A stretch of DNA of 37,363 nucleotides from Bacteroidales bacterium (GTDB taxonomy: Bacteria; Bacteroidota; Bacteroidia; Bacteroidales; VadinHA17): assembly GCA_024762655.1 (NCBI GenBank), contig JANTHB010000032.1, positions 1-37,363 on the forward strand. The letters run 5' to 3'. Both the position numbers and the translations under genes were made by a program. Under the pieces are notes generated by a model, which saw nothing but the letters and a program-made list of their open reading frames with translations, was not told where the DNA came from and made no database searches. This document shows positions 1,800 to 16,920 of this stretch, one piece after another; the stretch's first letter is position 1; every line of letters starts with the position of its first letter.

Positions 1800-2276
1800 T
1801 TGAAAGGCCACAAATCACATAATAAACGGATACTTATTCTCGGAATCGGCAATCTCCTTTTGGGGGATGAAGGGGCAGGCGTTCATGCGATCCGGTATAT
1901 GAACGAACATCCTTTTCCGGGAAATGTCCGGTTGCTGGACGGGGGCACCGGCGGTTTCAACCTGCTGGCATACCTGCAGGAATATGATCCGGTGATCCTC
2001 ATCGACGCCACCAGTGACAATGATCCTCCGGGGACGTTACATATCATAAAACCCCGTTTTTCTTCCGATTTTCCACGCACCCTCGGGGCACATGACATCG
2101 GGCTGAAAGACCTGATAGAATCAGCTGTATTACTGGATTCCCTGCCTGAAATTTTTCTTATCACCGTCAGCATCCGTATTCCTCATGAGCCCGGGATGGA
2201 ACTTTCTCCGACCCTACGGAAGACCCTGCCCGAAATAGAAAATAAAGTCCGGGAAATCATTGGCAGGTATCCGTAA
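1800..2276 (+). CDS. hyaD: [NiFe]-hydrogenase maturation endopeptidase (HyaD/HupD type)
   Basis: This 158-residue protease should remove the C-terminal peptide of the hydrogenase large subunit once the Ni-Fe site is assembled. The N-terminal motif GIGNLLLGDEGAGV (residues 15-28) is the family hallmark. The three nickel-sensing ligands known from E. coli HybD have clear counterparts: Glu24, Asp69 in LIDA, and His98 in AHDIG. Length matches the family. The start is a TTG, because no ATG or GTG precedes the conserved core in frame. A near-match to a Bacteroidota -7 box (TATATTTC, 1774-1781) lies just upstream. It is the first gene of the hydrogenase island, and its substrate HyaB is encoded 3 kb downstream with the expected cleavable tail. 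Confidence 0.93.
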   Translation: MKGHKSHNKRILILGIGNLLLGDEGAGVHAIRYMNEHPFPGNVRLLDGGTGGFNLLAYLQEYDPVILIDATSDNDPPGTLHIIKPRFSSDFPRTLGAHDIGLKDLIESAVLLDSLPEIFLITVSIRIPHEPGMELSPTLRKTLPEIENKVREIIGRYP

Positions 2277-2373: not shown

Positions 2374-2637
2374 ATGTGTCTGGCTGTCCCGGGTAAGATT
2401 GTTTCCATCAATAGCAGCGATCCTGAGTTGAAAATGGCAAAAGTGGACTTTGACGGTATGTTGGCCGATGTTTGTATCCAGTGGTTGCCTGAAGAGGTTA
2501 AAGTGGGAGATTATATCCTGGCCCATGTAGGCATGGCTTTAAATAAGCTGGATGAGGAGGATGCCAGACTTACGCTGGAGTCACTGCGGCAAATGGGAGA
2601 ATTAAACGAAGGAAATGCCGCCATTGACGATTCCTGA
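2374..2637 (+). CDS. hypC: Hydrogenase assembly chaperone HypC/HybG/HupF
   Basis: This small cytoplasmic chaperone of 87 residues carries the Fe(CN)2CO unit with HypD and delivers it to the hydrogenase large subunit. It begins MCLAVPGKI, the defining HypC start, in which Cys2 (exposed once the Met is removed) is the essential residue. The rest has the expected small beta-barrel pattern and an acidic C-terminus, and length is normal. It lies 97 bases after the protease gene and 34 bases before the sigma-54 activator. HypD, its obligate partner, is not in this window. The protein could serve more than one hydrogenase in the cell. Confidence 0.95.
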   Translation: MCLAVPGKIVSINSSDPELKMAKVDFDGMLADVCIQWLPEEVKVGDYILAHVGMALNKLDEEDARLTLESLRQMGELNEGNAAIDDS

Positions 2638-2671: not shown

Positions 2672-3685
2672 ATGGATCCCGGCAATTCGGTGCATATTAT
2701 CACACAGAATGAAGCCATGCGGGCCTTAATAAGCCGCATAGACAGAATTTCCGGTACCGGTTCCACCGTATTGCTGATAGGAGAAACAGGGGTAGGAAAA
2801 GAAATACTGGCAGAATACATACATCGTACGAGTGACCGTAGCCTGCACCCTTTGATAAAGATCAGTTTATCCGCGGTTCCTTCCGAGCTGCTGGCCAGTG
2901 AATTATTCGGATATGAAAAGGGAGCTTTCACCGGGGCCCGGGAAAGCAGAAAAGGACTCTTTGAACTGGCCCATACCGGAAGTATCTTTCTGGATGATAT
3001 TGACGATGTGCCCCTGGATATGCAGGTAAAGTTGTTGCGTTTCCTTGAAAACAGGGAGTTCAGACGCGTTGGGGGCACCGCTCCTGTATCCGTGGATGTC
3101 AGGATCATATCTGCCTCCAAGGTGCCTCTCGAAGAAATTGTCAAACGCAAATCATTCCGTGAAGATCTTTTCTACCGGTTGAATGTTATTCCTTTTACCA
3201 TCCCTCCTCTCCGGGAAAGAATCGATGACATCCCGTTGCTTGTCGAATATTTTACCCGTCGTTTATCCCCGGATAAGAAAATCATCTTTTCCCCTGAGGC
3301 CATGACAGCCCTGATGGCATACCATTGGCCGGGAAATGTACGGGAACTACGCAATGTCATTCAGCGGGTTATTGCCTTTTCTACGGATGTCATCAGGAAA
3401 ACAGATCTGCCTCCGGAAATTATTTACAACTCTGCCATCAATCAAATCGTGCATGCCTGTAAGTCCTGTTTTCTGAATAAACATATGAAACTACCCGATG
3501 TGGTCCGTTGTGTAGAAAGCAACCTGATCTTTGAAGCCCTGAAAAAAGCCGGAGGAAACCAGTCGGAAGCAGCCCGTTCGCTACAGATCAGCCTTTCTAC
3601 CTTCAGGGATAAACTGGCAAAGTATGCCGACACTTCACTAAAATGTGCCCCCATTCAAAAAGAAAATTCACACGGGGATACCTGA
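2672..3685 (+). CDS. Sigma-54-dependent activator without a sensor domain (PspF-like), likely hydrogenase regulator
   Basis: This 337-residue AAA+ enhancer-binding protein would drive open-complex formation by sigma-54 RNA polymerase. In order it has Walker A GETGVGKE (37-44), the sigma-54-contacting loop GAFTGA (84-89), Walker B IFLDDID (105-111), a WPGNVREL segment (219-226) and a C-terminal Fis-type helix-turn-helix (about 296-318). There is no receiver, GAF, PAS or other input domain: the AAA+ core starts almost at residue 1, as in PspF. The linker between core and HTH has an unusual cluster with His262, Cys263, Cys266, His271 and Cys280, which might bind metal or sense redox state (inference). 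Two operator-like repeats lie immediately after its stop codon and a -24/-12 promoter follows, ahead of the hydrogenase genes, so those are its likely targets. Confidence 0.9.
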   Translation: MDPGNSVHIITQNEAMRALISRIDRISGTGSTVLLIGETGVGKEILAEYIHRTSDRSLHPLIKISLSAVPSELLASELFGYEKGAFTGARESRKGLFELAHTGSIFLDDIDDVPLDMQVKLLRFLENREFRRVGGTAPVSVDVRIISASKVPLEEIVKRKSFREDLFYRLNVIPFTIPPLRERIDDIPLLVEYFTRRLSPDKKIIFSPEAMTALMAYHWPGNVRELRNVIQRVIAFSTDVIRKTDLPPEIIYNSAINQIVHACKSCFLNKHMKLPDVVRCVESNLIFEALKKAGGNQSEAARSLQISLSTFRDKLAKYADTSLKCAPIQKENSHGDT

Positions 3686-3710
3686 TTCCTATTTGTAGTC
3701 TTATTTTCTT

Positions 3711-3746
3711 TGCGGCTTTCCGCAGATTTTTCTGCGCTTTCCCGCA
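3711..3746 (+). promoter_or_regulatory. Tandem inverted-repeat enhancer (two TGCG-N6-CGCA sites)
   Basis: Two 14-base inverted repeats are seen: TGCGGCTTTCCGCA at 3711-3724 and TGCGCTTTCCCGCA at 3733-3746. Both have the form TGCG-N6-CGCA, and their centres are 22 bases apart, about two helical turns. They lie 110-145 bases upstream of the -24/-12 promoter, a normal distance for binding sites of a sigma-54 activator that loops DNA. The adjacent gene encodes such an activator with a Fis-type HTH, which binds palindromes as a dimer. That they are its sites is inferred from position and symmetry. Confidence 0.75.
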
Positions 3747-3856
3747 TCTTCACAGTCTCTTCTATCCGATTTAAATTTCCCGTATTAATCAGACAAAATC
3801 CTTTCTGTCTCTGTACCTGTACATTATGGTTCTACCGGGATCCAGTTGTCAGAGAC

Positions 3857-3870
3857 GGTATATCCTTTGC
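3857..3870 (+). promoter_or_regulatory. Sigma-54 (-24/-12) promoter of the hydrogenase structural operon
   Basis: GG at 3857-3858 and GC at 3869-3870 are separated by exactly 10 bases, and the -12 half reads TTTGCA. These are the invariant parts of the sigma-54 consensus TGGCACG-N4-TTGCA; the CACG half of the -24 element is not conserved. The predicted transcript start is near 3881-3882, just ahead of an AGGAG at 3884-3888 and the GTG at 3905. Together with the activator gene and tandem repeats upstream, the assignment is strong for a pattern match. Confidence 0.72.
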
Positions 3871-3904
3871 AAAGGGAATAAACAGGAGTATTAAAAAAAG
3901 AAAG

Positions 3905-4129
3905 GTGAATAAGATTGATTTTATCTGGTCGGGAGAAGTAGTGAGCATGATTGAGAAAGAAGGGAAATATCATGTTAAATTAAACTGTTCCAGTCAGCTT
4001 GTAGAGCTAGCCATCCCGGAAACCACAGGGCCATGCAGACTGGGAGATAAAATCATGATCCGTGGCCACATCAGGATCATGGAAATATTCAGAGGCAATA
4101 ACACACAAAACCGGAATTCGAATCTTTAA
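3905..4129 (+). CDS. Unrecognised 74-residue beta-rich protein, first gene of the hydrogenase operon
   Basis: I do not recognise this protein. From a GTG at 3905 it has 74 residues with the alternating pattern of a small beta-barrel: GEVVSMIEKEGKYHVKL, then ELAIPE, then LGDKIMIRGHIRIMEI, followed by a polar Asn-rich tail. The pattern resembles an OB- or SH3-like barrel and recalls HypC, but the N-terminal MC-P motif of HypC is absent. The frame is open back to 3710, but that part overlaps the enhancer and the sigma-54 promoter and does not look like protein, so the start must lie after about 3882. An alternative start is the ATG at 3947. It ends 21 bases before hyaA, so it would be co-transcribed as the first gene. 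A role in hydrogenase assembly or protection is a guess from position. Confidence 0.6.
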   Translation: MNKIDFIWSGEVVSMIEKEGKYHVKLNCSSQLVELAIPETTGPCRLGDKIMIRGHIRIMEIFRGNNTQNRNSNL

Positions 4130-4150: not shown

Positions 4151-5251
4151 ATGTCAAAAAAGCAACCTACTATGTATGAGGAAATCATTGAGAAGGGATA
4201 TTCCCGGAGGGATTTCCTCAGGTTTTGCGGAATGATGGGTGCATTCCTGGGCCTTGAATACAGTGGTGTGGGGCAGATCGTCAAGGCCATGGAGACCAAA
4301 ACCCGCATACCCGTAATATGGCTTCACTTTCAGGAATGCACCTGCTGCAGTGAATCATTCATTCGTTCCTCGCACCCCATTGTAGCGGACATCCTTCTTG
4401 ATAAGGTTTCGCTGGATTATACCGAGACCCTCATGGCTGCCGCCGGTTATCAGGCAGAGGAGAACCTGCACAATACCATGGAAAAATACAAAGGAGAATA
4501 TCTTTTGATGGTGGAAGGATCGATACCTGTTAAAAATAAAGCTTATTGCTGTATCGGCGGGCGCACCGCATATGATATCCTGAAAGAAGCCGTGGAGGGA
4601 GCCAAAGGGATTATCGCCTGGGGCAACTGTGCGGTTTCCGGATGCGTACAGGGAGCTTCTCCCAATCCGACAGGAGCCACGCCGGTACACAAGCTGGTCA
4701 GGGGAAAACCCATTATCAACGTTCAGGGTTGTCCTCCCATTGCGGAGGTGATGGCCGGGGTGGTTGTATACCTGCTCACGTTTGACCGCTTCCCGGAACT
4801 GGACGGTCTGGGACGTCCGAAAGCATTCTTCTCCAGACGGGTTCATGATACCTGTTACCGCCGACCCAATTTCGACGCCGGATTATTTGTGGAAACTTTC
4901 GATGATGAAAATGCCAGAAAAGGATACTGTCTTTATAAAATGGGATGCCGGGGACCGGTTACGTATAACTCTTGCGGAGTTATTCGCTGGAATAACGGGA
5001 CCAGCTTTCCGATTCAGTCCGGGCATCCCTGCATCGGTTGCAGCGAAGCCAATTTCTGGGATAACGGTCCTTTCTACAAGCATCTCGCCAGCTTCCCGGG
5101 GTTTGGCATAGAAACCACCGCCGATGACATAGGACTGGCTGTCGGGGCAGTCACTGTCGCCGGTATTGCAGCCCATGCGATTGCCACCAACATACGCAAG
5201 AGAAAAATGATCCGGGAAGGAATCATTCATCCTGAAGAAGACAACGATTAA
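4151..5251 (+). CDS. hyaA: [NiFe]-hydrogenase small subunit, oxygen-tolerant group 1d type
   Basis: This Fe-S subunit of 366 residues passes electrons from the Ni-Fe site to cytochrome b on the periplasmic side of the membrane. A Tat signal with SRRDFLRF (18-25) starts the protein, and a C-terminal membrane anchor spans about 325-347. The proximal cluster motif is ECTCCSE, giving Cys63, Cys65 and Cys66. With Cys160, Cys165 and Cys194 this makes six cysteines, the arrangement of the [4Fe-3S] proximal cluster in E. coli Hyd-1. The extra residues Cys65 and Cys165 correspond to Cys19 and Cys120 there. The distal cluster ligands are His232, Cys235, Cys260 and Cys266, and the medial [3Fe-4S] ligands are Cys275, Cys294 and Cys297. 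It is followed by hyaB after 14 bases. Confidence 0.97.
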   Translation: MSKKQPTMYEEIIEKGYSRRDFLRFCGMMGAFLGLEYSGVGQIVKAMETKTRIPVIWLHFQECTCCSESFIRSSHPIVADILLDKVSLDYTETLMAAAGYQAEENLHNTMEKYKGEYLLMVEGSIPVKNKAYCCIGGRTAYDILKEAVEGAKGIIAWGNCAVSGCVQGASPNPTGATPVHKLVRGKPIINVQGCPPIAEVMAGVVVYLLTFDRFPELDGLGRPKAFFSRRVHDTCYRRPNFDAGLFVETFDDENARKGYCLYKMGCRGPVTYNSCGVIRWNNGTSFPIQSGHPCIGCSEANFWDNGPFYKHLASFPGFGIETTADDIGLAVGAVTVAGIAAHAIATNIRKRKMIREGIIHPEEDND

Positions 5252-5265: not shown

Positions 5266-6987
5266 ATGGCTAAACGAATCGTAATAGATCCGGTGACACG
5301 CATCGAAGGTCACTTGCGTGTCGAAGTGGAAATCAGAGACGGTCACATCATCGATGCGTACAGTTCAGGCACCATGGTGCGGGGCATTGAAAAGATATTG
5401 AAAGGCAGGGACCCCAGGGATGCCTGGGCGTTTACCGAACGTGTCTGCGGTGTGTGCACGACCGTTCACGCCCTGGCTTCGGTACGCAGTGTCGAAGATG
5501 CCCTCGGTATTGTGGTTCCACCCAATGCCGAAATGATCCGCAACCTCATGTTTTGCACACAATATATGCATGACCACGTGGTTCATTTTTACCATCTGCA
5601 TGCGCTCGACTGGGTGGATGTGGTTTCGGCCCTGAAAGCCGACCCGGCAGAGACATCCAGGATCGCCATGTCGATATCGCACTGGCCCAAAAGCTCTACC
5701 GGTTATTTCAGCGATCTGCAGAAACGACTGACACGTTTTGTGGAAAGCGGTCAACTGGGGATATTCCAAAACGGTTACTGGGGCCACAAAGCCTATAAAC
5801 TGCCTCCTGAAGTAAACCTCCTGGCCGTAGCCCATTATCTGGAAGCCCTGGAGTGGCAGAAAGAGATCGTGAAAGTACATACGATCCTGGGCGGCAAAAA
5901 TCCCCATCCCAACTATCTGGTAGGCGGCGTTCCCTGTGCTATCAATATAGATGAAGAAAATGCGCTGAACAGTGAAAGGCTGGCAAAGATCGGCACCCTG
6001 CTCAAGGAAGCACAGACCTTTGTAGAACAGGTGTATATCCCCGATCTCCTGGCCGTAGCCTCTTTTTACAAAAATGAATGGGGCGCTATCGGAGGAGGTC
6101 TTGAGAATTATCTGGCATACGGCGACCTGCCACTGAACGGCATTCGTGATGCCACTATGTTTAAATTTCCCAGGGGGATCATTATGAACCGTAATCTCAG
6201 TGAGGTGCTGGAAGTAGATGCCACCAGCGCAGACGAGATCCAGGAGTTTATTGCACATTCCTGGTATGAATATCCGGACGGCAATGAAGCAGGCAAGCAT
6301 CCCTGGGAAGGAGAGACCATGTTTAACTATACCGGTCCTGAACCTCCCTATGAACAATTGAATGTTGAAGGAAAATACAGTTGGCTGAAAACACCCCGGT
6401 GGAAAGGAAATCCCATGGAGGTAGGTCCGCTGGCACGCATGCTGGTAGGGTTTGCCTCAGGGAAGGACGAATTCAGGGAAGTGGTCACCTTTGCCCTGAA
6501 AAAACTGGATGTGCCTGTAGAAGCACTTTTCTCCACCCTGGGAAGGACAGCCGCACGGGGTCTGGAAACCAAACTGATCGCCGGCTGGGCGCAGGAGTTT
6601 TATGATCAGCTGCTCAACAACATCCGCACCGGCGACCACAGGACATTCAACCATGAAAAATGGGATCCCCGTTTGTGGCCGGATGAAGCAAAGGGAGTCG
6701 GTCTCTCCGAAGCACCCCGGGGCGCCCTGGCTCACTGGATCAGGATCAAGGATTCTCTGATCGACAATTACCAGATGGTGGTCCCCAGCACCTGGAATGC
6801 TTCACCCCGTGACCCCAAAGGCCAGCGTTCGGCCTACGAAGCCTCTCTGCTGGGCACGCCTGTGGACGACCCTGAAAAACCCCTGGAGATACTGCGGACC
6901 ATCCACTCCTTCGATCCCTGTATCGCCTGCGCGGTTCACCTCTACGATGAAAAAGGCACCTATGTACATCAGATACAGGTTTTTTGA
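5266..6987 (+). CDS. hyaB: [NiFe]-hydrogenase large subunit
   Basis: This catalytic subunit of 573 residues holds the Ni-Fe(CN)2CO site and oxidises H2. The N-terminal motif RVCGVC gives Cys61 and Cys64. The C-terminal motif DPCIACAVH gives Cys552, Cys555 and His558, the other two metal-binding cysteines and the cleavage site. A 15-residue tail (559-573) follows His558 and should be removed by the protease encoded at 1800-2276. The start RIVIDPVTRIEGHLRVEVE is typical. Length fits group 1 enzymes (about 570-600). The protein lacks its own signal and would be exported through Tat together with the small subunit. The gene is flanked by hyaA and hyaC in the usual order. Confidence 0.97.
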   Translation: MAKRIVIDPVTRIEGHLRVEVEIRDGHIIDAYSSGTMVRGIEKILKGRDPRDAWAFTERVCGVCTTVHALASVRSVEDALGIVVPPNAEMIRNLMFCTQYMHDHVVHFYHLHALDWVDVVSALKADPAETSRIAMSISHWPKSSTGYFSDLQKRLTRFVESGQLGIFQNGYWGHKAYKLPPEVNLLAVAHYLEALEWQKEIVKVHTILGGKNPHPNYLVGGVPCAINIDEENALNSERLAKIGTLLKEAQTFVEQVYIPDLLAVASFYKNEWGAIGGGLENYLAYGDLPLNGIRDATMFKFPRGIIMNRNLSEVLEVDATSADEIQEFIAHSWYEYPDGNEAGKHPWEGETMFNYTGPEPPYEQLNVEGKYSWLKTPRWKGNPMEVGPLARMLVGFASGKDEFREVVTFALKKLDVPVEALFSTLGRTAARGLETKLIAGWAQEFYDQLLNNIRTGDHRTFNHEKWDPRLWPDEAKGVGLSEAPRGALAHWIRIKDSLIDNYQMVVPSTWNASPRDPKGQRSAYEASLLGTPVDDPEKPLEILRTIHSFDPCIACAVHLYDEKGTYVHQIQVF

Positions 6988-7067
6988 CAATGATGTCGTG
7001 TATAAATCGCAACCCGGGCCGGAGGAGCCCCGGCAAAGGTTTCTCCGGTGTAAAAAACAAATGACTT

Positions 7068-7733
7068 ATGGATAAAATAAAAAGAATATATGTTTGGGAG
7101 ATCCCCGTCAGGTTTTATCACTGGCTCAACATGTTCTGCATCATCGTGCTGGTGATTACGGGATATTTCATCGGAAGCCCTCCCGCCATCCAACATGGCG
7201 CCGAAGCGTATTTCAATTACTGGTTCGGTATTAACCGGTTTATTCATTTTCTCTTTGCCTATATTTTCTTTTTCAACTTCCTGTTACGAATATACTGGGC
7301 TTTTGCAGGAAATGAATTTTCCAGATGGAACAATTTCCTGCCGCTGAAAAAAAGCCAGTGGAAAGAAGTCATCGAAGTGTTAAAAGTGGATATCTTACAG
7401 CTCAGGACCTGGTCTTTTGAATCCAGGGGACACAATGCGCTGGCCAGCGCCACCTATTTCATCATGTTTCTGGCTTTTCTGCTTCAGTGTCTGACCGGTT
7501 TCGGCATGTACGCAGCCATGAGCACTTCCTGGTTTCCCAGGCTGTTTGCCTGGTTTATTCCGTTGGTCGGCGGCGACATGGCAGCCCGGCATATCCATCA
7601 TATTCTAATGTGGGTTTTCATTCTTTTTGCCATCGTCCACGTTTACCTGGTGTACTACCATGATTACGTAGAACGCACAGGAGAAGCTTCTTCCATGATC
7701 AGCGGCTGGAAATTTGTAAACAACAAAGATTAG
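7068..7733 (+). CDS. hyaC: Hydrogenase cytochrome b subunit
   Basis: This membrane-bound di-heme cytochrome b of 221 residues passes electrons from the hydrogenase small subunit to the quinone pool. It has four hydrophobic segments (about 17-36, 55-79, 128-150 and 176-198). Candidate heme ligands include His18, His60, His177 or His178, and His191. The motif RFYHWLN near the start and HIHHILMW before the last segment are typical of HyaC/HupC. It follows hyaB after 80 bases and ends the operon. Its TAG stop overlaps the stop of the convergent recN by 4 bases, with no terminator hairpin between them. Confidence 0.95.
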   Translation: MDKIKRIYVWEIPVRFYHWLNMFCIIVLVITGYFIGSPPAIQHGAEAYFNYWFGINRFIHFLFAYIFFFNFLLRIYWAFAGNEFSRWNNFLPLKKSQWKEVIEVLKVDILQLRTWSFESRGHNALASATYFIMFLAFLLQCLTGFGMYAAMSTSWFPRLFAWFIPLVGGDMAARHIHHILMWVFILFAIVHVYLVYYHDYVERTGEASSMISGWKFVNNKD

Positions 7734-9406
7734 TTGGAGCCGGCGTTTCCGGAGATTTTGAGCAGTTCGCGGGCATTCTGGTAAGCCGCTTCCGAAAGTT
7801 CCCGGCCGCTGAGCAATTTGGCGATCTCGGTGATTCGTTCCTCGGGGGTAAGTTTTTTTACCTGTGTCCGCGTCTTTCCGTTCGCATCCGTTTTATACAC
7901 CAGATAATGTTCTTTTCCCTTGCTGGCGATCTGGGGGAGATGCGTGATATTCACCACCTGCATCTTTTCGCCCATGCGGGCAATGATTTGCCCCACCCTG
8001 TCGGCGATATCTCCGGACACGCCCGTATCTATTTCGTCAAAGATGATCGTAGGCAATCCCACGCTCTCGGTCAGCAAGGATTTAAGACTCAGCATCAGCC
8101 GTGACAGTTCTCCTCCGGAAGCAATCTTCCCGATCTCCTGCACGGAAGCCTGTGTATTGGCCGAAAACAGAAATGACACCTGGTCGAAACCATAGGGTCC
8201 CGGCTCAGGATTGTCTGTGATCTCTATATGAAAACGAGCCGCGGGGATACCCAATTCCCGTAACAATCCCACCACCGCTTTTTCTATCTCCTCCCTTGCC
8301 GATCTGCGGATTTCCGTAAGCTCTTTGCCCAAAGCCCATAACTTTTCGCGTGCAGCAGCCAGCTGACTTTCAGCCCTGGCCAGTTCCTCATCATAGGACC
8401 CGATACGGGCAATCTTTTCATCCAGATCATTGCGAATCGCAAGCAAGCCGGCAACCGTTTTCACCCGATGCTTATCCTCCAGATGATATATCAGGTTTAA
8501 ACGCTCCCTGACCTGTTCCATGCGGCCGGGTTCATACTCTATATCGTTGCCTTTCACTTCCAGCTCGCCTGCCAGATCTTTCAGGTCAATATAGGCAGTT
8601 TCCAGTCTCTCCACGTAATCTCCCACCTCAGGCAGATAATTCCGGATGCGTTGTAGCGTATGCACCACATCCTTCAGTTTCACCACCACCGCCTGCTCGT
8701 TTTCCTGTAAAACAGTCCAGGCATAAAGCAAAGCATTCTTAATTTCTTCGGCATGCGATAAGACTTCCATCTCACCCTCCAGCCGTTCCTGTTCATCGTC
8801 GTGCAGATCCGCCTTATCCAGTTCCTCAAACTGAAATTGAAGATAATCCAGGTCGGCGCCTGCCTGACGGGCCAGCTCCCGAAGTTCGGAAAAAACCTGT
8901 TTGCTGTGCTGATAATCTTTATAGGCCCGTTGATATGCCCCGGTAAGATCCTGCCGATGTGTGAAGGCATCCAGTACCTGCAGTTGAAAGACATTGGATC
9001 CCAGCAGGATGTTTTGATGCTGTGAATGAATATCAATGAGACTGCTGCCCAGACGCTGCAAGACAGGAAGATTTACGGGAGTATCATTGATAAATGCCCT
9101 GGACCTCCCCGACGGGCTCATCTCTCTACGGACTGTGGTCAACGCTTCATAATCCAGATCATGTGCGTTAAAAAAATCTTCCAGGTGATAGTTGCTCACA
9201 TCAAAAACCGCCTCTACGATACACTTCTTATCTTTGTTCATCAACACGGAGGTGTCCGCTCTCTTTCCGGTGATCAGGTCAATAGCCCCCAAAATGATGG
9301 ATTTGCCTGCACCTGTTTCTCCGGAAATAATAGTCAGTCCCGGACCAAAATCCATTTCCAGCTCCTCTATCAATGCATAATTCCGGATCAATAATGACTT
9401 TAACAT
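7730..9406 (-). CDS. recN: DNA repair protein RecN
   Basis: This SMC-like ATPase of 558 residues takes part in repair of double-strand breaks. Walker A is GETGAGKS (29-36). A long coiled-coil region occupies the middle (about 155-370). The ABC signature ASGGELSRLML and Walker B IIFDEIDTGVSG follow in the C-terminal half, then the D-loop region. Length is normal (550-570). It is the last gene of the bamD-rpoZ-coaBC-porD-recN run, 58 bases after porD. The ATG start precedes the conserved MLKSLLIRNYALIE beginning of the family. Confidence 0.97.
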   Translation of the reverse strand: MLKSLLIRNYALIEELEMDFGPGLTIISGETGAGKSIILGAIDLITGKRADTSVLMNKDKKCIVEAVFDVSNYHLEDFFNAHDLDYEALTTVRREMSPSGRSRAFINDTPVNLPVLQRLGSSLIDIHSQHQNILLGSNVFQLQVLDAFTHRQDLTGAYQRAYKDYQHSKQVFSELRELARQAGADLDYLQFQFEELDKADLHDDEQERLEGEMEVLSHAEEIKNALLYAWTVLQENEQAVVVKLKDVVHTLQRIRNYLPEVGDYVERLETAYIDLKDLAGELEVKGNDIEYEPGRMEQVRERLNLIYHLEDKHRVKTVAGLLAIRNDLDEKIARIGSYDEELARAESQLAAAREKLWALGKELTEIRRSAREEIEKAVVGLLRELGIPAARFHIEITDNPEPGPYGFDQVSFLFSANTQASVQEIGKIASGGELSRLMLSLKSLLTESVGLPTIIFDEIDTGVSGDIADRVGQIIARMGEKMQVVNITHLPQIASKGKEHYLVYKTDANGKTRTQVKKLTPEERITEIAKLLSGRELSEAAYQNARELLKISGNAGSN

Positions 9407-9464
9407 ACGCCTTGCAGGAAATTGAGACAGGTAAAACTAATGAAAATATTCCGGAATAGAAAGG

Positions 9465-10412
9465 TTATTGTCCTTTCAGCATCTTGTCGTACTTCTGGCT
9501 GTTGGCAGGGTCGATTTCTTTCATAATCACGGAAACCCGCGTTCTTTCATCCGGAAAAGACTTGGAAAAGATATTGACGATCTCATCCCGTTTTGCATCC
9601 AGCACCAGCGTCAGGAAAAGCATGTACGGATCGGGTTTAGCCCGGTACACTTTCTGCAACAGTTTAAGGCTGTTGGCTATCTCGGCACGTCCCGTATTCA
9701 GATCACTCTCCATCACGTCCAGGCCCAGACGATGATAACGGTAAATAAATTCCCGCACCGGTGCGTACTTGCTATCCAGAATATTTTGGATCAGCCAGTA
9801 CCGGTTTTTATTGCGCGAGCCGGAAAAAGGTTTCCACCCGGGTTCCACCGCATTCTGCGCATTGTTAACAATCTGTTCCGCCTTCTGAAAATACGGGGTA
9901 CCCCCGTTCAGAGAAAACGAATCATAATCCAGCCCAATGATAATATAGGCATAATAAGCCAGCACGGAGGTCAGGTTATTCAGAAAGCTGGACTCATTGA
10001 ACTCCAGCGGCTGGAATTCGACATAGGTAAACATAAAATCGTTATCCAGAAAATTGAACATTGTGGTGTTGTAGGTCGTATTGAAAACCGGTCTTCTGGA
10101 TTGTATCTGGATGGTACCTTTGAACTGATCGGAAGAGATCTGTTCCGTAAGATTTATCAGCATGGTGCATTCGATGCGTTCATTCACATCAAATACATTG
10201 TTGGTCCATACCGTATTATTCATAAATTCATAGACCGCCTGTTGCAGGGTTTTGAATTTCTCCTGATAAGACCCTTGTATTTTCTGGGCGGAGATGGACA
10301 CATTACAGTGGAGTTCCTGTCCGTAGGTACCGGGAAGTTTCAGGAATAACATCACGACCAGAATACCAGGGAAGAACCACCGACGTATTCCTTTTTGTGG
10401 AGGTCTGTCCAT
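9465..10412 (-). CDS. porD: Type IX secretion system protein PorD (DUF4835 family)
   Basis: This 315-residue periplasmic or outer-membrane-associated protein belongs to the DUF4835 family, of which PorD, linked to type IX secretion, is the named member. A signal peptide covers about residues 10-31, ending near GTYGQ before ELHCNVSI. The body has the family's features: an early ELxCxV motif, YNTTMFNFLDNDF near 115-127, a YYAYIIIGLDYDSF segment near 153-166 and GGTPYFQKA after it. Its start overlaps the coaBC stop by one base (TGATG), so the two are translationally coupled. Placement between coaBC and recN agrees with what I recall from other Bacteroidota. The exact role of PorD in type IX secretion is poorly known. 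Confidence 0.88.
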   Translation of the reverse strand: MDRPPQKGIRRWFFPGILVVMLFLKLPGTYGQELHCNVSISAQKIQGSYQEKFKTLQQAVYEFMNNTVWTNNVFDVNERIECTMLINLTEQISSDQFKGTIQIQSRRPVFNTTYNTTMFNFLDNDFMFTYVEFQPLEFNESSFLNNLTSVLAYYAYIIIGLDYDSFSLNGGTPYFQKAEQIVNNAQNAVEPGWKPFSGSRNKNRYWLIQNILDSKYAPVREFIYRYHRLGLDVMESDLNTGRAEIANSLKLLQKVYRAKPDPYMLFLTLVLDAKRDEIVNIFSKSFPDERTRVSVIMKEIDPANSQKYDKMLKGQ

Positions 10413-11623
10413 CAGAGGAACTTTTGCTGAATAAAATTAAGTATATCCTGCGCAACCTCTGTTTTCGATTTCAGCGGATATTCCTTTTGGTTGCCGGATT
10501 TATCAATGATCGTAATTTTGTTGGTATCGTATCCGAAACCGGCACCTTCGTCGCGCAGAGAGTTCAACACGATATAGTTCAGGTTCTTTTTTCTGATTTT
10601 CGATAAGGCATTCTCCACCTCATTTTCCGACTCCAGGGCAAAGCCTACCAACATCTGGTCATTGGTTTTTATCTTTCCCAGTTCCGCAGCGATATCTATT
10701 GTCGGCTTCAGTTGTATGACCAGTTTGTCTTTGTCTCTTTTCAATTTCTGCCCGTAGGTTTCTACCGGTGTAAAATCGGCCACAGCGGCAGCCAGGATCG
10801 CCACATCACTGTCGGGAAAAACCCTGAGACTTTCCCGGTACATGTCTTCAGCCGAAACCACCGGGACAACTTTCACCTTATGCGGAATCCTGCCATAGGT
10901 CCCCGGTCCGAGGACCAGGGTCACCTCAGCACCCATCTGTACCGCTTTTTCAGCCAGGGCAATACCCATCTTTCCCGAAGAGCGGTTCCCTATATATCTG
11001 ACCGGGTCGATGGCTTCATACGTAGGACCGGCCGTAATCAATATCTTTTTTCCGGCCAGTTTGGTTCTTTTCTTCGGGTGGAGAGCGAGAAAGCTTTTCA
11101 GCTCCAGGACAATCTCTTCGGGTTCCATCATTCTGCCGGCGCCTTCCAGGCCGCTGGCCAGCTCGCCCTCGGGAGACTCCAGGATATGCACTCCTCTTTT
11201 TTTCAGAAGATCCAGATTTTCCCGGGTAGCTGCATGGTTATACATATCCATGTCCATCGCCGGGGAGATCATTACCGGGCAGCGGGCCGAAAGATAGGTC
11301 GTCAGCAAGAAGTTATCCGCGACACCCTGTGCCATCTTGGCAATGGTGTTGGCGGAAACAGGTGCAATAAGCAACAGGTCGGCCCATAACCCGAAATCAA
11401 TATGGCTATACCACTTGCCCGTTTCCGGGTTGAACGGTTCACAATAGATCCGGTTGCGTGACAACACGGCCAGGGTAAGCGGCGTAATAAAATCCCTGGA
11501 TGAAGGGGTCATGATCACTTTCACATCCGCCCGCTCCTTTTTCAGCAAACGGACCAGGTAAGCAGCCTTGTAAGCGGCAATGCTACCGGTTACACCCAAG
11601 ATGATCTTTTTCCCCTTCAACAT
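10412..11623 (-). CDS. coaBC: Bifunctional phosphopantothenoylcysteine decarboxylase / phosphopantothenate-cysteine ligase
   Basis: This 403-residue enzyme carries out two successive steps of coenzyme A synthesis: it joins phosphopantothenate to cysteine (CoaB) and decarboxylates the product (CoaC). The N-terminal flavoprotein half (1-180) begins GVTGSIAAYKAAYLVRLL. It has the catalytic-histidine segment SHIDFGLWAD, the FMN loop PVSANTIAKMA and the substrate clamp PAMDMDMY. The C-terminal half (about 185-400) begins KKILITAGPTYEAIDPVR and has NRSSGKMG, the nucleotide-binding start of CoaB. Length is normal. It lies 14 bases after rpoZ, an arrangement seen in many bacteria. Confidence 0.97.
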   Translation of the reverse strand: MLKGKKIILGVTGSIAAYKAAYLVRLLKKERADVKVIMTPSSRDFITPLTLAVLSRNRIYCEPFNPETGKWYSHIDFGLWADLLLIAPVSANTIAKMAQGVADNFLLTTYLSARCPVMISPAMDMDMYNHAATRENLDLLKKRGVHILESPEGELASGLEGAGRMMEPEEIVLELKSFLALHPKKRTKLAGKKILITAGPTYEAIDPVRYIGNRSSGKMGIALAEKAVQMGAEVTLVLGPGTYGRIPHKVKVVPVVSAEDMYRESLRVFPDSDVAILAAAVADFTPVETYGQKLKRDKDKLVIQLKPTIDIAAELGKIKTNDQMLVGFALESENEVENALSKIRKKNLNYIVLNSLRDEGAGFGYDTNKITIIDKSGNQKEYPLKSKTEVAQDILNFIQQKFL

Positions 11624-11637
11624 AATAAAAGATATTT

Positions 11638-11970
11638 TTATGACTCGTCCGGAAGCTCTTCAACATACCGGTAATAGATCTTCCCTTCCTTAAATTCCTC
11701 AAGAGCAATAGACGTGGGCTTCGGAAGACGTTCATAAAATTTCGAGATCTCGATTTGTTCTTTGTTTTCCATCACCTCTTCCAGATTGTCCGTATAAAAA
11801 GAGAACTCTTCCAGTTTCTTGTTCAGTTCCTGTTTCAGATCCAGGGCAATCTGATTGGCCCGGCGGGAGCAGATAACCACGGTTTCATAAATGTTCCCCG
11901 TTTCCTGATCGAGATTGTTAATGTCCTGAGTGACCGTCGTTACCGGTGCTTTGGTTCTTTTGTAATCCAT
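11638..11970 (-). CDS. rpoZ: RNA polymerase omega subunit (Rpb6-like, Bacteroidota form)
   Basis: This 110-residue protein matches the Bacteroidota form of omega/Rpb6, which supports assembly of RNA polymerase. The conserved core lies at about residues 25-50, with NIYETVVICSRRANQIALDL corresponding to the omega segment that contacts the beta-prime subunit. The C-terminal part ends with KPTSIALEEFKEGKIYYRY, in which the short IALEEF motif is typical of omega. It sits between bamD (35 bases upstream) and coaBC. The leader contains two direct copies of TTTTACG on the plus strand, without a clear meaning. Confidence 0.9.
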   Translation of the reverse strand: MDYKRTKAPVTTVTQDINNLDQETGNIYETVVICSRRANQIALDLKQELNKKLEEFSFYTDNLEEVMENKEQIEISKFYERLPKPTSIALEEFKEGKIYYRYVEELPDES

Positions 11971-12005
11971 ACTATTTTAATTTTACGTTTTTACGTTTTT
12001 CCTGG

Positions 12006-12815
12006 TTATTTTACACTTAAATAATTATTGCAACTACTGTATATTTTCCTGGCTTCCTTTATAAACCGGCTTTTGGGAAACTCATCTATAAAAGAATAAT
12101 AGTCATCCACGGTTTCCTGGAATCTCTCCGGTTGTTTTGCCCGCACGCTGTTCTCAGCATACAGATATTTTGACTTCAGTCTGAGGAACATAAGCTCTTC
12201 CCTGAATTTGGTATCCGGAAAATCCTCAAGGCTGTTACTCAGAGCTACAATGGCAGCCTTGTATTGTTCCAGTCTGAAATATAATTTGGCTGACAAATAA
12301 GATTTTTCCGCCAGCTTTTCCTGTAATTCCTTCGACAGCTTGTCACACTGCTCATTGTATTTGCTGGCGGGGAATTTGGTTTTATGCAAGGCAAAAGCAT
12401 TCAGCGCATTATACGTATTGGTCTGATCCAGTTCGGGCCGCGGGGACAGTTTATAGTAACAATAGCCCATCAGAAAATCAGCATCGTCCGCGTGTTCACT
12501 GGTAAGATAGGTTTTGACAAACGTTTCAAAATAGTGGCCGGCCATCACAAAATCTCCTATTTCATAATAACATTTTGCATGGAGATAATCCAGTTCCTCC
12601 GACTTTGTAGTACCCCTGTAATGCGGCAGGATCTTTTCAATTAAGCTGGCTGCCTGCGTGTATTTACCATTGGCATAATATTCTTTCACCTTGCTGTAGA
12701 TCAGCTCATTGTCCTGACTTTTCATGAGTTTGTCAAACTCACCACAGGAAGATAACACCAGAAAAGTACTGATAATAAATAATGAAAAGTAGATCCTGAT
12801 ATTTCGTACAGCCAT
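12006..12815 (-). CDS. bamD: Outer membrane assembly lipoprotein BamD
   Basis: This 269-residue lipoprotein belongs to the BAM complex that inserts beta-barrel proteins into the outer membrane. The signal has a lipobox LSSC with the lipidated residue Cys24. The mature part is made of TPR-type helical repeats, for example the ones at about 38-66, 74-102 and 108-135. The segment DADFLMGYCYYKLSPRPELDQT is a typical BamD region and is followed by the characteristic FALHKTKFPASKYN. It is the first gene of a five-gene operon, with a TAnnTTTG -7 box about 60 bases upstream of its ATG. Confidence 0.93.
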   Translation of the reverse strand: MAVRNIRIYFSLFIISTFLVLSSCGEFDKLMKSQDNELIYSKVKEYYANGKYTQAASLIEKILPHYRGTTKSEELDYLHAKCYYEIGDFVMAGHYFETFVKTYLTSEHADDADFLMGYCYYKLSPRPELDQTNTYNALNAFALHKTKFPASKYNEQCDKLSKELQEKLAEKSYLSAKLYFRLEQYKAAIVALSNSLEDFPDTKFREELMFLRLKSKYLYAENSVRAKQPERFQETVDDYYSFIDEFPKSRFIKEARKIYSSCNNYLSVK

Positions 12816-12875
12816 TTCCCCGTTGTCGTTTTATACCTTCTTTTGGTTCAGATATGTTCTGAAAAAAGAAACGTG

Positions 12876-12883
12876 CAAAATTA
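12876..12883 (-). promoter_or_regulatory. Bacteroidota -7 box of the bamD-recN operon
   Basis: On the minus strand the octamer is TAATTTTG, an exact TAnnTTTG. The predicted transcript start near 12869 gives a leader of about 54 bases to the bamD ATG. No clean -33 TTTG was found at the usual spacing. Confidence 0.5.
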
Positions 12884-12965
12884 ATGAATATTTTTTAACC
12901 GTCATCTTTTTGACTCAAATAACATACCAAAAGGTTTTTCTTTTTTATCTGATAAATAAAAAAAC

Positions 12966-12973
12966 TACATTTG
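12966..12973 (+). promoter_or_regulatory. Bacteroidota -7 box of the alpha-oxoamine synthase gene
   Basis: TACATTTG is an exact TAnnTTTG. A T-rich stretch lies at the -33 position (TTTT instead of TTTG). The predicted start near 12980 precedes the GTG start at 13005 by about 25 bases and supports that start codon. Confidence 0.55.
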
Positions 12974-13004
12974 CAAAAATTCTCAAACCTAAAAAATTAA
13001 CATC

Positions 13005-14252
13005 GTGGATCTTTTCGATAAATTAAACATTGACAACACATCTCTCGGTCAGTATCATGAAATGGCCGACGGGTATCAGATGTTTCCCAAGCTGGAAGGG
13101 GAAATACAGCCCTGGATGAAATTCAGGGGAAAGGAAGTGCTTACCTGGAGTCTCAATAATTACATAGGTCTGGCCAACCATCCTGAGGTGCGTAAGGCTG
13201 ATGCCGAGGCTGCCAAAGAATGGGGTCTGGCTTATCCCATGGGTGCACGTATGATGTCAGGGCACACAACGATGCACGAAAAACTGGAGGAACAACTGGC
13301 TGCTTTCGTAAACAAGGAAAGCGCTTATCTTCTTAATTACGGTTACCAGGGGATGCTTTCCATCATCGATTCTATGGTAGACCGGAAAGATGTAATCGTT
13401 TATGACTCCGAGTCGCATGCCTGTATCCTTGACGGTCTGCGTCTGCATATGGGGAAACGTTTTGTTTTCCAGCACAATGACATGGAAAACCTGGAAAGAC
13501 AATTAAAACGTGCTACACGGCTTACCAAGATCTCCGGAGGCGGCATTCTGGTAATCACCGAGGGAGTCTTCGGCATGGCCGGCGATCTGGGACATGTCCA
13601 TGAAATCGTCCAGCTGAAAAAGGATTATAGTTTCCGCCTGCTGGTGGATGATGCCCACGGTTTCGGCACCATGGGACCGGAAGGGGCTGGCACGGGAACA
13701 CATTACGGTGTTCAGGATGATATCGATGTTTACTTTGCTACGTTCGCTAAGGCCATGGCCGGTATCGGCGGTTTTGTGGCCGGTAAAAAGGACGTGATCA
13801 CCTACCTGCGTTTTAACATGCGCTCCCAGATCTTTGCCAAGTCTCTGCCCATGCCCATGGTTGTAGGCGCTATGAAAAGACTAGAACTTCTTAAGACCCA
13901 CCCCGAACTGCGCGAAAACCTGTGGAAGATCGTTCGTCTCCTGCAAAACGGACTGAAAGATAACGGATTGAACATAGGCCATACAGAGTCTCCGGTTACC
14001 CCGGTGTTTCTGGAAGGTACGCCCATAGAAGCCGCCAATCTTATTGTGGACCTGCGCGAGAATCATAGTATTTTCTGCTCCATGGTTGTTTATCCGGTGG
14101 TTCCCAAAGGGATAATCATGCTGCGGCTAATACCTACCGCCGTGCATACGGAAAAAGATGTTGAAGTAACCCTGCAGGCTTTCAAGGAAATCAAAAATAA
14201 ACTGGACGGAAGGAAATACAACCGCGAGAAAGTGGAGTTTACCCTGAAATAA
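13005..14252 (+). CDS. PLP-dependent alpha-oxoamine synthase (AONS / serine palmitoyltransferase family)
   Basis: This fold-type I PLP enzyme of 415 residues should condense an amino acid with an acyl-CoA. It has His138 (SHAC) for stacking on the cofactor, Asp215 and His218 in DDAHGFG, and the Schiff-base Lys249 in TFAKAMAGIGGF. The alternatives are serine palmitoyltransferase for sphingolipids, 8-amino-7-oxononanoate synthase for biotin, and 2-amino-3-ketobutyrate CoA ligase. Sphingolipid synthesis is plausible in this phylum, but no lipid or biotin gene lies nearby and I cannot decide from the sequence. The start is GTG, supported by the promoter upstream. The N-terminus MDLFDKLN and the middle PMGARMMSGHTTMHEKLE are like those of other Bacteroidota members of this subgroup, as I recall them. 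A strong terminator follows. Confidence 0.88.
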   Translation: MDLFDKLNIDNTSLGQYHEMADGYQMFPKLEGEIQPWMKFRGKEVLTWSLNNYIGLANHPEVRKADAEAAKEWGLAYPMGARMMSGHTTMHEKLEEQLAAFVNKESAYLLNYGYQGMLSIIDSMVDRKDVIVYDSESHACILDGLRLHMGKRFVFQHNDMENLERQLKRATRLTKISGGGILVITEGVFGMAGDLGHVHEIVQLKKDYSFRLLVDDAHGFGTMGPEGAGTGTHYGVQDDIDVYFATFAKAMAGIGGFVAGKKDVITYLRFNMRSQIFAKSLPMPMVVGAMKRLELLKTHPELRENLWKIVRLLQNGLKDNGLNIGHTESPVTPVFLEGTPIEAANLIVDLRENHSIFCSMVVYPVVPKGIIMLRLIPTAVHTEKDVEVTLQAFKEIKNKLDGRKYNREKVEFTLK

Positions 14253-14267
14253 TCAGATCACCCCCTG

Positions 14268-14304
14268 AAAAAAAGGAGTTATGCATCACATAACTCCTTT
14301 TTTT
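14268..14304. terminator. Bidirectional rho-independent terminator
   Basis: A run of seven A, GGAGTTATG, a 5-base loop CATCA, CATAACTCC and a run of seven T form a perfect stem of nine GC/AT pairs plus the A/T tracts. It lies between the convergent oxoamine synthase and trxB genes and can end transcription in both directions. Confidence 0.9.
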
Positions 14305-14322
14305 ATCTCAAAAACCTGCCGG

Positions 14323-15339
14323 TTATTTTGTCTGGGCATATTTCTCAGCCCAGTACCTTTCGGATTCGATGGCAGCCATACATCCTGAACCCGCTGCCGT
14401 GACCGCCTGCCTGTATACTCTGTCCTGAACATCGCCGCAGGCAAAAACCCCTTCTACATTGGTACGTGCCGTGCCGGGAATGGTTTTGATATATCCGATA
14501 TCATCGGTTTCTATATACTCCTGGAAAATATCCGAGTTGGGTTTATGACCGATCGCCAGGAAAAAACCATCAATCTTGATTCTTACTTCTTCCTCCTCGG
14601 GTTTTCCTTTTTTCTTTATCAGCACAGCTCCCTCCACGACGCCTTCCCCAAAGAGGTCTTTGGTATTATGTTCAAAGAGGATCTCAATGTTGGGGGTGTT
14701 CATCACCCGGTGCTGCATGATCTTGGAGGCACGCAGGTGGGGTTTCCGGACAATCATATAAACTTTGCGGGCAAGTCCGGACAGATAGAGGGCTTCTTCA
14801 CAAGCGGTATCTCCGCCCCCGACCACGGCCACGTCTTTCCCTTTGTAGAAAAAACCGTCGCAGGTGGCACAGGCGGACACGCCGCTGCCGGCATATTTCT
14901 TCTCGGCGGGCAGGCCCAGATATTTGGCAGAGGCCCCGGTGGCAATGATAACCGTATCCGCTTCGATCACTTTTTTATCATCAATGGTCACCTTGTGCGG
15001 AATACGGGAAAAATCCACAGTAGTAGCCGAACCCCAGCGGATATCCGTACCGAAACGTTCGGCTTGTTTTTTAAGGTCTTCCATCATGGTCGGTCCGCTG
15101 ATGCCGTCGGGATATCCCGGGAAGTTTTCCACATCTGTCGTAATCGTCAGTTGGCCTCCCGGTTCCATGCCCTGATACAACACCGGCTCCATATTGGCAC
15201 GGGCCGAATAAATGGCAGCCGTATAACCGGCCGGCCCCGACCCTATGATCAGACATTTTACATGCTCTCTCTCTTCTGCCTGTTTTTTCTGTCCGTCGGT
15301 GTTATCATCCAGATTGTCCATGGGTTTAAATAAGTCCAT
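14323..15339 (-). CDS. trxB: Thioredoxin-disulfide reductase
   Basis: This NADPH-dependent flavoprotein of 338 residues keeps thioredoxin reduced. The FAD motif GSGPAGY is at 33-39, the redox-active pair CATC at Cys157 and Cys160, and the NADPH motif GGGDTACEEA at about 174-183. The C-terminal FAD segment GVFACGDVQD is typical. The protein has about 26 residues before the conserved HVKCLIIGSG, an acidic and polar extension (with DNLDDNTDG) longer than usual. A -7 box at 15390-15397 agrees with the upstream start, so I keep it. It is transcribed as a single gene ending at a shared terminator. Confidence 0.95.
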   Translation of the reverse strand: MDLFKPMDNLDDNTDGQKKQAEEREHVKCLIIGSGPAGYTAAIYSARANMEPVLYQGMEPGGQLTITTDVENFPGYPDGISGPTMMEDLKKQAERFGTDIRWGSATTVDFSRIPHKVTIDDKKVIEADTVIIATGASAKYLGLPAEKKYAGSGVSACATCDGFFYKGKDVAVVGGGDTACEEALYLSGLARKVYMIVRKPHLRASKIMQHRVMNTPNIEILFEHNTKDLFGEGVVEGAVLIKKKGKPEEEEVRIKIDGFFLAIGHKPNSDIFQEYIETDDIGYIKTIPGTARTNVEGVFACGDVQDRVYRQAVTAAGSGCMAAIESERYWAEKYAQTK

Positions 15340-15389
15340 AATCTTCTGTTTTTATGTTGTTTTACATTTAGTTTATGTCATTTCCGTCG

Positions 15390-15397
15390 CAAAAATA
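15390..15397 (-). promoter_or_regulatory. Bacteroidota -7 box of trxB
   Basis: On the minus strand the octamer is TATTTTTG, an exact TAnnTTTG, about 50 bases upstream of the trxB ATG. The -33 element is not clear. Confidence 0.5.
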
Positions 15398-15463
15398 CGA
15401 TCTTTTCCGGATAAACTGCCCCCCGGGTTACAATATTCATACCAGATTTTACTCCCTGAAACT

Positions 15464-15494
15464 TTTGCAGATTCCAAAGGGTTGATTATTTTTG
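15464..15494 (+). promoter_or_regulatory. Promoter of tRNA-Pro (TTTG-N19-TATTTTTG)
   Basis: A -33 box TTTG (15464-15467) and a -7 box TATTTTTG (15487-15494) are separated by 19 bases, which fits the Bacteroidota primary promoter consensus in both elements and spacing. The predicted start near 15501 leaves about 44 bases of leader before the mature tRNA. Confidence 0.75.
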
Positions 15495-15544
15495 CAGTCG
15501 CAATGATCGGGAGGCATGCAACGATTACTCCCGATATTACAAAA

Positions 15545-15618
15545 CGGGATGTAGCTCAGTCAGGTAGAGTACACGTCTGGGGGGCGTGGGGTCGCGAGTT
15601 CAAGTCTCGCCATCCCGA
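15545..15618 (+). tRNA. tRNA-Pro (anticodon GGG)
   Basis: The sequence folds as a complete cloverleaf: acceptor CGGGATG with CATCCCG, D-arm GCTC...GAGT, anticodon stem CACGT with GCGTG enclosing the loop CTGGGGG, and T-arm GCGAG-TTCAAGT-CTCGC. The anticodon in the loop is GGG, for proline. The C1-G72 pair is typical of bacterial tRNA-Pro. The discriminator base is A at 15618, and CCA is not encoded. Confidence 0.96.
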
Positions 15619-15624
15619 CAGCAA

Positions 15625-15660
15625 AGAAAAACCGTATGCCGCAAGGCTGCGGTTTTTCTT
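15625..15660. terminator. Terminator after tRNA-Pro, also serving the convergent GroES-like gene
   Basis: AGAAAAACCG (15625-15634) pairs perfectly with CGGTTTTTCT (15650-15659), enclosing an inner stem GCC-GCAA-GGC. A T-tract ends the hairpin on the plus strand and the A-tract gives one on the minus strand. The right arm overlaps the stop codon of the GroES-like gene. Confidence 0.85.
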
Positions 15661-16042: not shown

Positions 16043-16188
16043 GTTATTCCGTTTTAGTATGATATATACACGAAAGTAATAAAACCCCCATAACAAATAT
16101 CATTCCTTTGGATAAAAAACCGTAAATTTATCCCACCTCCTCCGGAATTCCGAAGGTGTCATCCGGGTTTATTCAAAACAAAATATTT

Positions 16189-16887: not shown

Positions 16888-16920
16888 AAAAAATTTCTTA
16901 TCAGGCAATTTCTTTATTCC
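16881..16920. terminator. Weak inverted repeat between convergent trmJ and RHS-type gene
   Basis: GGAATAAA (16881-16888) and TTTATTCC (16913-16920) are complementary and overlap the two facing stop codons. The A and T tracts next to the arms allow further partial pairing. The loop is long (24 bases), so this is at best a weak bidirectional terminator. Confidence 0.35.

Follow-up and report, generated by a model that had tools for sequence, protein, structure and literature searches.

Transcription of an uptake [NiFe] hydrogenase in a member of the Bacteroidales is probably controlled by a dedicated sigma-54 switch, the activator of which is encoded beside the hydrogenase and may be gated by cysteines in its linker. 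The predicted circuit lies in a stretch of 37,363 nucleotides (contig JANTHB010000032.1 of assembly GCA_024762655.1; hereafter, the window) and is well supported by comparison with related sequences: activator and hydrogenase genes are paired, the operator pair and the -24/-12 promoter are conserved, and the sites track the presence of the activator. The result supplies a named regulator, a predicted operator and promoter, and a testable sensor site.

Organization of the locus

The gene order proposed in a first-pass annotation of the window, i.e., activator, repeats, promoter and hydrogenase (Table 1), holds, except that a small gene, orfX, precedes hyaA. The switch had been called self-contained, a description that leaves this companion gene aside; position 4129, at which that annotation ended, is the end of orfX.

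Table 1. Features of the predicted switch and of the neighboring hydrogenase genes
Feature	Position	Strand	Basis
Hydrogenase maturation protease, HyaD/HybD type; opens upstream group	1800..2276	+	PF01750, E 6.9e-17; TIGR00072 above cut-off
hypC, hydrogenase maturation chaperone; directly 5' of activator	2374..2637	+	PF01455, E 1.3e-23
Sigma-54 activator, 337 aa	2672..3685	+	PF00158, PF25601, PF02954
Operator 1 (predicted), TGCGGCTTTCCGCA	3711..3724		Sequence; conserved CGG-N4-CCG pair
Operator 2 (predicted), TGCGCTTTCCCGCA; starts 22 bp past start of operator 1	3733..3746		Sequence; spacing of 21 or 22 conserved
-24/-12 promoter (predicted), CGGTATATCCTTTGC; GG 3857-3858, GC 3869-3870	3856..3870	+	Relatives match better at equal distance
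orfX, 74 aa, GTG start; first gene past promoter, no family assigned	3905..4129	+	Relatives; beta-rich model
[NiFe]-hydrogenase small subunit (hyaA), O2-tolerant group-1 type	4151..5251	+	TIGR00391 above cut-off; nearest solved chain HoxK 5mdj
[NiFe]-hydrogenase large subunit	5266..6987	+	PF00374, E 6.8e-239
Hydrogenase b-type cytochrome	7068..7733	+	TIGR02125 above cut-off

Among solved chains, HoxK of a membrane-bound hydrogenase is closest to the small subunit (5mdj, E 3.1e-134). In addition, the proximal cluster has two further cysteines nearby, in the motifs ECTCCS and GCVQ, which align with the corresponding HoxK residues and which we take to be the mark of an O2-tolerant group-1 [NiFe] hydrogenase. 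Elsewhere in the window, on the minus strand, open reading frames at 29141-34214 resemble by eye an Rnf electron-transport operon, and a 1495-residue protein with an RHS repeat is encoded beside a 693-residue protein with a Por secretion tail (16914-23498).

The surroundings of 30 activators from 29 genomes were read, including the genome of the window; 29 of these activators are full length. The same hydrogenase lies near the activator in 21 of 29 regions, downstream and in line with it in 17 and convergent with it in four (L199, L200, L202 and L203), and three of the eight regions without it stop at a contig edge (L130, L138 and L174). hypC is directly 5' of the activator in the same-genus relatives, and hypC-hypD-hypE could be recognized by eye in this position in L174 and L129. 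The L128 activator adjoins an apparent rpsF, also by eye, and in that genome the hydrogenase is found on a different contig, preceded by 162 bases.

The activator and its orthologues

That the first gene of the switch encodes a sigma-54 activator with a GAFTGA loop, as first annotated, was borne out, with the loop at residues 84-89. Pfam delimits an AAA+ domain (residues 9-174), a lid (181-254) and a Fis-type helix-turn-helix (HTH) domain (281-318), with C263, C266 and C280 in the linker; PF00158 and PF02954 both score above cut-off. A bacterial enhancer-binding protein is recognized by a Fis-type HTH together with an AAA+ domain that has Walker A, arginine fingers and a loop of the GAFTGA type, and the activator is accordingly placed in this class. 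No Pfam domain lies ahead of the AAA+ domain, which starts at residue 9, and no receiver match was found, in agreement with the proposal that this activator differs in type from the receiver-bearing HoxA/HupR proteins. Scores against the NCBIfam PspF model TIGR02974 (254.7 bits; cut-off 443.55) and the NifA model (296.8 bits; cut-off 528.85) fall below the thresholds of both. A structural model built with 26 general activators resembles solved sigma-54 activators, with a mean confidence of 87.3 and linker blocks at 58-77. The genome holds four strong Sigma54_activat matches, this activator being one, and four weak ones, and contains the rpoN gene that the proposal presupposes (one match).

Three arginines, R163, R169 and R224, which are presumably the arginine fingers and sensor II, are invariant in the 29 activator rows. 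The Walker B motif (window 2993-3007) is DDIDD in 29 of 29 orthologues, with Asp at residue 109, where Glu is usual; most control activators have Glu at the second place and Gly at the fourth, and the orthologues also carry Lys at sensor I. Walker B Asp and sensor I Lys were rejected as a mark of the clade, D109 and K150 each being present in 18 of 119 controls. Asp109 would count against the preferred explanation as regards the predicted ATPase activity. The GAFTGA loop itself (window 2921-2938) varies across the clade, with GSFTSA, GAYTSA, GAYTNA, GAYTTA and GAFTGS among its forms, and Tyr replaces its Phe in 9 of 30 activators.

Orthologues were collected from overlapping order, family and phylum samples and from 60 relatives, among which 12 proteins with 57-100% identity were found, one cut by a contig end; a further 183-residue fragment sits at a contig edge in G008, also among the 60. 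Nine of the 393 order-sample genomes gave scores of at least 484 bits from frames of 332-352 residues, while the next best score was 335.5 bits. The next 20 matches listed in that sample had frames of at least 445 residues, so this short activator type stands apart. Another contig-edge fragment (299 bits) was found in order-sample genome G361. The activator is present in 11 of 117 family-sample and 13 of 395 phylum-sample genomes. When the 29 were placed in a tree together with 54 other activators, a branch supported at 100/100 set them apart from the rest; a group of 15 longer activators, of which the same order supplies 14, joins the clade at 97/86, the root being a midpoint only. Neighbours in this tree that come from same-order genomes bear the labels Bacteroidales and Labilibacter, in keeping with a Bacteroidales-like order.

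The operator pair

Two repeats had been described as TGCG-N6-CGCA, and TGCGGCTTTCCGCA and TGCGCTTTCCCGCA do stand where they were reported, 22 bp apart start to start, but the conserved core is CGG-N4-CCG, from which the second palindrome of the window differs at one position. As the earlier reading implied, the repeats are conserved in homologous loci: a CGG-N4-CCG pair with a spacing of 21 or 22 bp and no more than two mismatches in all was found upstream of hyaA in 19 of 21 loci, compared to 0.31 expected from near dinucleotide-preserving shuffles, and 16 of 21 have a pair with at most one mismatch (0.01 expected). Spacing was 22 bp in 11 pairs and 21 bp in seven, the next commonest value accounting for two. 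For the window, 300 near dinucleotide-preserving shuffles of the 650 bases ahead of hyaA produced no pair as good, core and spacings having been chosen post hoc. The loci were also scored with a weight matrix from whose training the genus or group in question had been left out. Fewer than 5% of mononucleotide shuffles equalled or beat its best site in 19 of 21 loci, the exceptions being L198 and L199; in L202 this best site lies away from the operator pair. An acceptable plain-core pair was not found in L136 and L170, where the matrix detects a weak pair and one good site, respectively. Because the core, spacings and matrix seeds were picked by eye from loci that were later counted, the shuffle figures flatter the result, and the spacing scan and the loci of genomes lacking the activator are fairer checks.

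In the four convergent loci, where over 4 kb separates the activator gene from the hydrogenase promoter, the pair still lies at that promoter. Furthermore, a search of the 400 bases ahead of the activator gave no pair with at most one mismatch for any of the 28 activators with at least 300 bases upstream, so the activator is not seen to control itself. Exact pairs with a leading A, sought in 24 activator genomes, gave 19 matches in 11 genomes versus 4 for a reversed control, nine of them at an activator or hydrogenase locus and ten elsewhere. A regulon of the window's own genome drawn from single palindromes was abandoned, as these are too common (297 matches per strand with at most two mismatches, where the reversed control gave 172 and 147). 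A perfect lone palindrome, TGCGGTTTTCCGCA, occurs about 2 kb from rpoN in G000 (contig C2, 63240-63253), possibly by chance.

The -24/-12 promoter

Sigma-54 promoters have the consensus TGGCA-N6-TTGC. The letters first read as GG-N10-GC with TTTGCA were confirmed, and the site so defined, CGGTATATCCTTTGC, is weak when taken alone, with two mismatches to the consensus and 23% of shuffles as good. It is convincing because the promoters of three same-genus relatives (TGGTACATCCTTTGC, TGGTATATCCTTTGC and TGGCATTTCCTTTGC) match better at an equal distance, the 143 bp from operator 1 in the window being reproduced within 1 bp in all three. Conservation extends to the homologous loci in general, as had been predicted: downstream of the pair, TGGCA-N6-TTGC is perfect in 11 of 21 loci (0.02 expected) and has at most one mismatch in 17 (0.60 expected). 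The promoters with two mismatches, in L192, L195, L203 and the window, are favored because they all sit at common distances (83, 84, 85 and 143); L203 has two tied sites, of which one was measured. Distances from operator 1 fall into groups of 83-85 (six loci), 142-143 (five), 151-154 (six) and 159-162 (three), and although each group is tight, the steps from one to the next do not always correspond to whole helical turns, so that no phasing of operator with promoter is claimed. L136 is unplaced; its distance of 312 is meaningless because the plain core chose a wrong pair.

Sites and hydrogenase in genomes with and without a detected activator

Hydrogenase loci were compared between genomes with and without a detected activator, counting a pair with at most two mismatches and a promoter with at most one. 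Both sites were found in 11 of 19 loci from activator genomes, which are mostly the loci of the 21-locus count above. The eight that fail these strict limits include the window, by virtue of its promoter, and two loci (L256 and L257) that were kept with only 142 and 162 bases upstream; L244, with 3 bases upstream, was dropped. Among phylum-sample genomes without a detected activator, in contrast, none of 19 loci (57-76% identity) has both sites or the promoter, and five show a pair at the looser setting; these loci come from 87 genomes, from which the 30 best-scoring loci were fetched, and seven of the 19 belong to one family. The order sample gave a similar picture, with no pair, and hence not both sites, in any of 17 loci from genomes without a detected activator (63-77% identity); one of the 17 has a one-mismatch promoter far upstream. 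These came from 33 genomes, from which 18 loci were added and one, L264 of G361, was set apart. L264 has a perfect pair with a two-mismatch promoter 155 bp on, and its genome holds the contig-edge activator fragment, which had been missed at first.

The sites also occur where the hydrogenase is on a contig other than that of the activator. L258 (G363) has a pair with one mismatch and a promoter with two at 142 bp. L261 (G051) has a pair with two mismatches and a perfect promoter at 144 bp, in a genome in which the activator contig ends nearby, so that the two genes may be closer together than the contigs suggest.

The small subunit is present in 9 of 9 order-sample genomes with the activator versus 33 of 384 others, and in 10 of 13 phylum-sample genomes with it versus 87 of 382 others, counts that are not corrected for kinship. 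Thus, hydrogenase without a detected activator occurs in 33 order-sample and 87 phylum-sample genomes. The switch is itself not tied to the uptake hydrogenase, because the latter is absent from three of the 13 phylum-sample activator genomes and from family-sample genome G024.

Cysteines in the linker

C263, C266 and C280 are invariant in all 29 full-length activators, and the pattern C-X2-C-X13-C, which lies between the AAA+ lid and the HTH domain, is also present in both contig-edge fragments (G008 and G361), i.e., in 31 of 31 readable orthologues. The L138 activator (226 residues) stops short of the linker and was left out of the cysteine counts and the tree. General activators with at most 51% identity, from the 80 loci among the matches listed for named genomes, served as controls. 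C-X2-C was found nowhere in the C-terminal part of 131 control proteins (130 distinct), and in a joint alignment none of 119 controls, many of them gapped there, has Cys at the three positions. An earlier form of the comparison had retained 121 controls, ten having failed an anchor pattern, and was repeated on all 131. Bias from the cysteine columns inside the search profile, A1, is unlikely because of the gap between scores of at least 484 and at most 335.5 bits.

In the structural model, C280 lies in the helix before the HTH domain. The activator had been described as sensorless, which is correct insofar as it has no sensor domain. However, the occurrence of the three cysteines in 31 of 31 orthologues, together with the absence of C-X2-C from 131 controls, makes an intrinsic sensor likely, and on this comparison the linker cysteines are a likely redox or metal site.

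orfX

By eye and by alignment, a gene corresponding to orfX was recognized in 15 of 21 hydrogenase loci, where it separates hyaA from the promoter, and also after the activator in L129, L193 and L197; its GTG start is common to the same-genus relatives. None was seen in L132, L173, L199, L200 and L202, and that in L203 is doubtful. An alignment of 17 sequences, from which the near copy in L134 was left out, has a shared pattern around GEV and LGDK and one invariant column. Profiles of the two halves of this alignment match each other with a probability of 98.6%, which supports the existence of one family and not the membership of each sequence.

The single-sequence model of OrfX (pLDDT 68.5) consists of four long strands and is all beta but for three residues. 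Foldseek searches with this model gave a best E of 0.012 and no match at or below 0.001. Mop-like chains top the fold list at a Z of about 6, MopII and related chains among them, in a range that is common by the scale of the tool, and none exceeds 8, which says little for a model of this confidence. OrfX may be weakly alike in fold to the Mop/TOBE small beta-barrels, but has no significant sequence match to them (one of the 17 members matches Pfam TOBE, at E 0.1). Kinship with HypC is not claimed, the profile comparison giving a probability of 19% and an E of 0.0012 and Pfam HypC matching 1 of 17 members at E 0.06. Assignment to another known family was likewise set aside, the best Pfam match being DUF4165 (E 0.005 in 1 of 17) and the best PDB sequence match having an E of 0.089.

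Proposed mechanism and alternative explanations

By analogy with established sigma-54 biology, dimers of the activator would bind the two CGG-N4-CCG palindromes, two helical turns apart, and assemble into an AAA+ ring. Through a DNA loop, the activator would then reach the RNA polymerase that RpoN keeps at the -24/-12 site, 143 bp further along, and would use ATP to open the promoter for orfX-hyaA-hyaB-hyaC. With less certainty, the cysteines of C-X2-C-X13-C, close to the DNA-binding domain, may gate this activity as a thiol or metal redox switch, which could allow the hydrogenase to be made under reducing conditions. Feedback, if there is any, might most readily enter through OrfX, because it is the first product of the switched operon.

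The same circuit could instead receive its signal in trans, the activator being intrinsically active in the manner of PspF and held back by OrfX or by a maturation protein, with the cysteines serving a structural purpose such as a zinc knuckle. Activators without an N-terminal domain are indeed regulated in this way, PspF by PspA and HrpR/HrpS by HrpV (PMC7057263). The place of orfX at the head of the switched operon in 15 of 21 loci, and beside the activator in L193 and L197, where the genomes yielded no such hydrogenase, would suit it as a partner of this kind. The explanation nevertheless seems unlikely, since OrfX is divergent and unseen or doubtful in six loci, while the cysteines are kept in every readable orthologue.

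A constitutive activator, which just sets a high sigma-54 output while the point of regulation is rpoN or the expression of the hypC-activator group, would agree with the lack of a sensor domain and with the finding that none of 28 activators is preceded by an operator pair; the three invariant cysteines, with C-X2-C absent from the controls, would be hard to explain without a role, and this reading is considered rather improbable. The suggestion that repeats and promoter are chance occurrences, and that the hydrogenase is transcribed from a housekeeping promoter of the TAnnTTTG type, can draw on the window's -24/-12 match, which alone is within chance, but becomes extremely improbable in view of the conservation at fixed spacing across the phylum sample and the absence of the sites from loci in which the genome has no detected activator. 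A dedicated switch for the uptake hydrogenase, gated perhaps by the linker cysteines, is preferred.

Relation to known systems

Sigma-54 activators dedicated to an uptake [NiFe] hydrogenase and encoded beside it are familiar from proteobacteria as HoxA/HupR, which have an N-terminal receiver domain and respond to a signal chain of a kinase and a regulatory hydrogenase. The window activator resembles these proteins in its target and its place beside the hydrogenase genes, and differs from them in having no N-terminal domain. In architecture it is closer to PspF and HrpR/HrpS, which consist of AAA+ plus HTH with no regulatory domain in front (PMC7057263); the target of PspF is another one, and the window activator scores below the PspF cut-off and carries the three cysteines.

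NifA of alpha- and beta-proteobacteria provides the nearest parallel for the cysteines. Four conserved cysteines, from the end of the AAA+ domain to the start of the linker, have been proposed to form a metal-binding redox sensor, and DNA binding by NifA was found not to be regulated by a Cys pair that directly precedes its DNA-binding domain (PMC10590331). The likeness is one of cysteine place and setting, at the linker start after AAA+, and does not make the window activator a NifA: that protein contains a GAF domain and its cysteines lie partly inside AAA+, whereas the window activator has no GAF match and its cysteines lie in the linker. By analogy, the difference in number (four versus three) and the nonregulating Cys pair speak against cysteine sensing. 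Should the comparison hold, the window activator, free of a GAF domain, would allow redox sensing through cysteines of the linker to be studied in a simpler form than in NifA, where the mechanism is poorly understood.

In the open-licence literature, no account was found of hydrogenase genes being transcribed under sigma-54 control in Bacteroidota, and within that scope such control appears to be unpublished, as the first-pass annotation had surmised. The consulted part of a survey of sigma-54 regulons gives hydrogenase subunits as targets under Proteobacteria (PMC12316311).

The module at other loci

Several activators of the clade precede genes other than those of the uptake hydrogenase. In L129 (G024) the activator lies ahead of genes that resemble by eye a heterodisulfide reductase (Hdr)-linked hydrogenase, and the uptake small subunit was not found in this genome, which is 89% complete. 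The L201 activator stands before a set that is similar by eye to that of L129. In L193 and L197 activator and orfX are followed by genes that appear by eye to be unrelated, and no such hydrogenase was found in either genome. A wider reading, advanced tentatively and with rather less than even confidence, is that the circuit constitutes a transferable hydrogen-metabolism switch of the phylum, in which the three linker cysteines would form a metal or thiol sensor and the beta-rich OrfX would close a feedback loop, the module of activator, operators, promoter and orfX having been rewired from the uptake hydrogenase to the hydrogenase/heterodisulfide-reductase-like set (L129, and perhaps L201 and the second copy in L192) and to others (L193 and L197).

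The L129 cluster (6799-17139) runs hypC-hypD-hypE-activator-operators-promoter-orfX and then the Hdr-linked hydrogenase-like genes. In L192 (G731, 8361-14815), one cluster contains two activators of the clade, and both have an operator pair of their own. The first precedes the uptake hydrogenase; the second lies ahead of Hdr-like genes and of an additional maturation protease. Finally, the large-subunit gene of L170 is split over two overlapping frames (10989-12636), either by a frameshift or by an assembly error.
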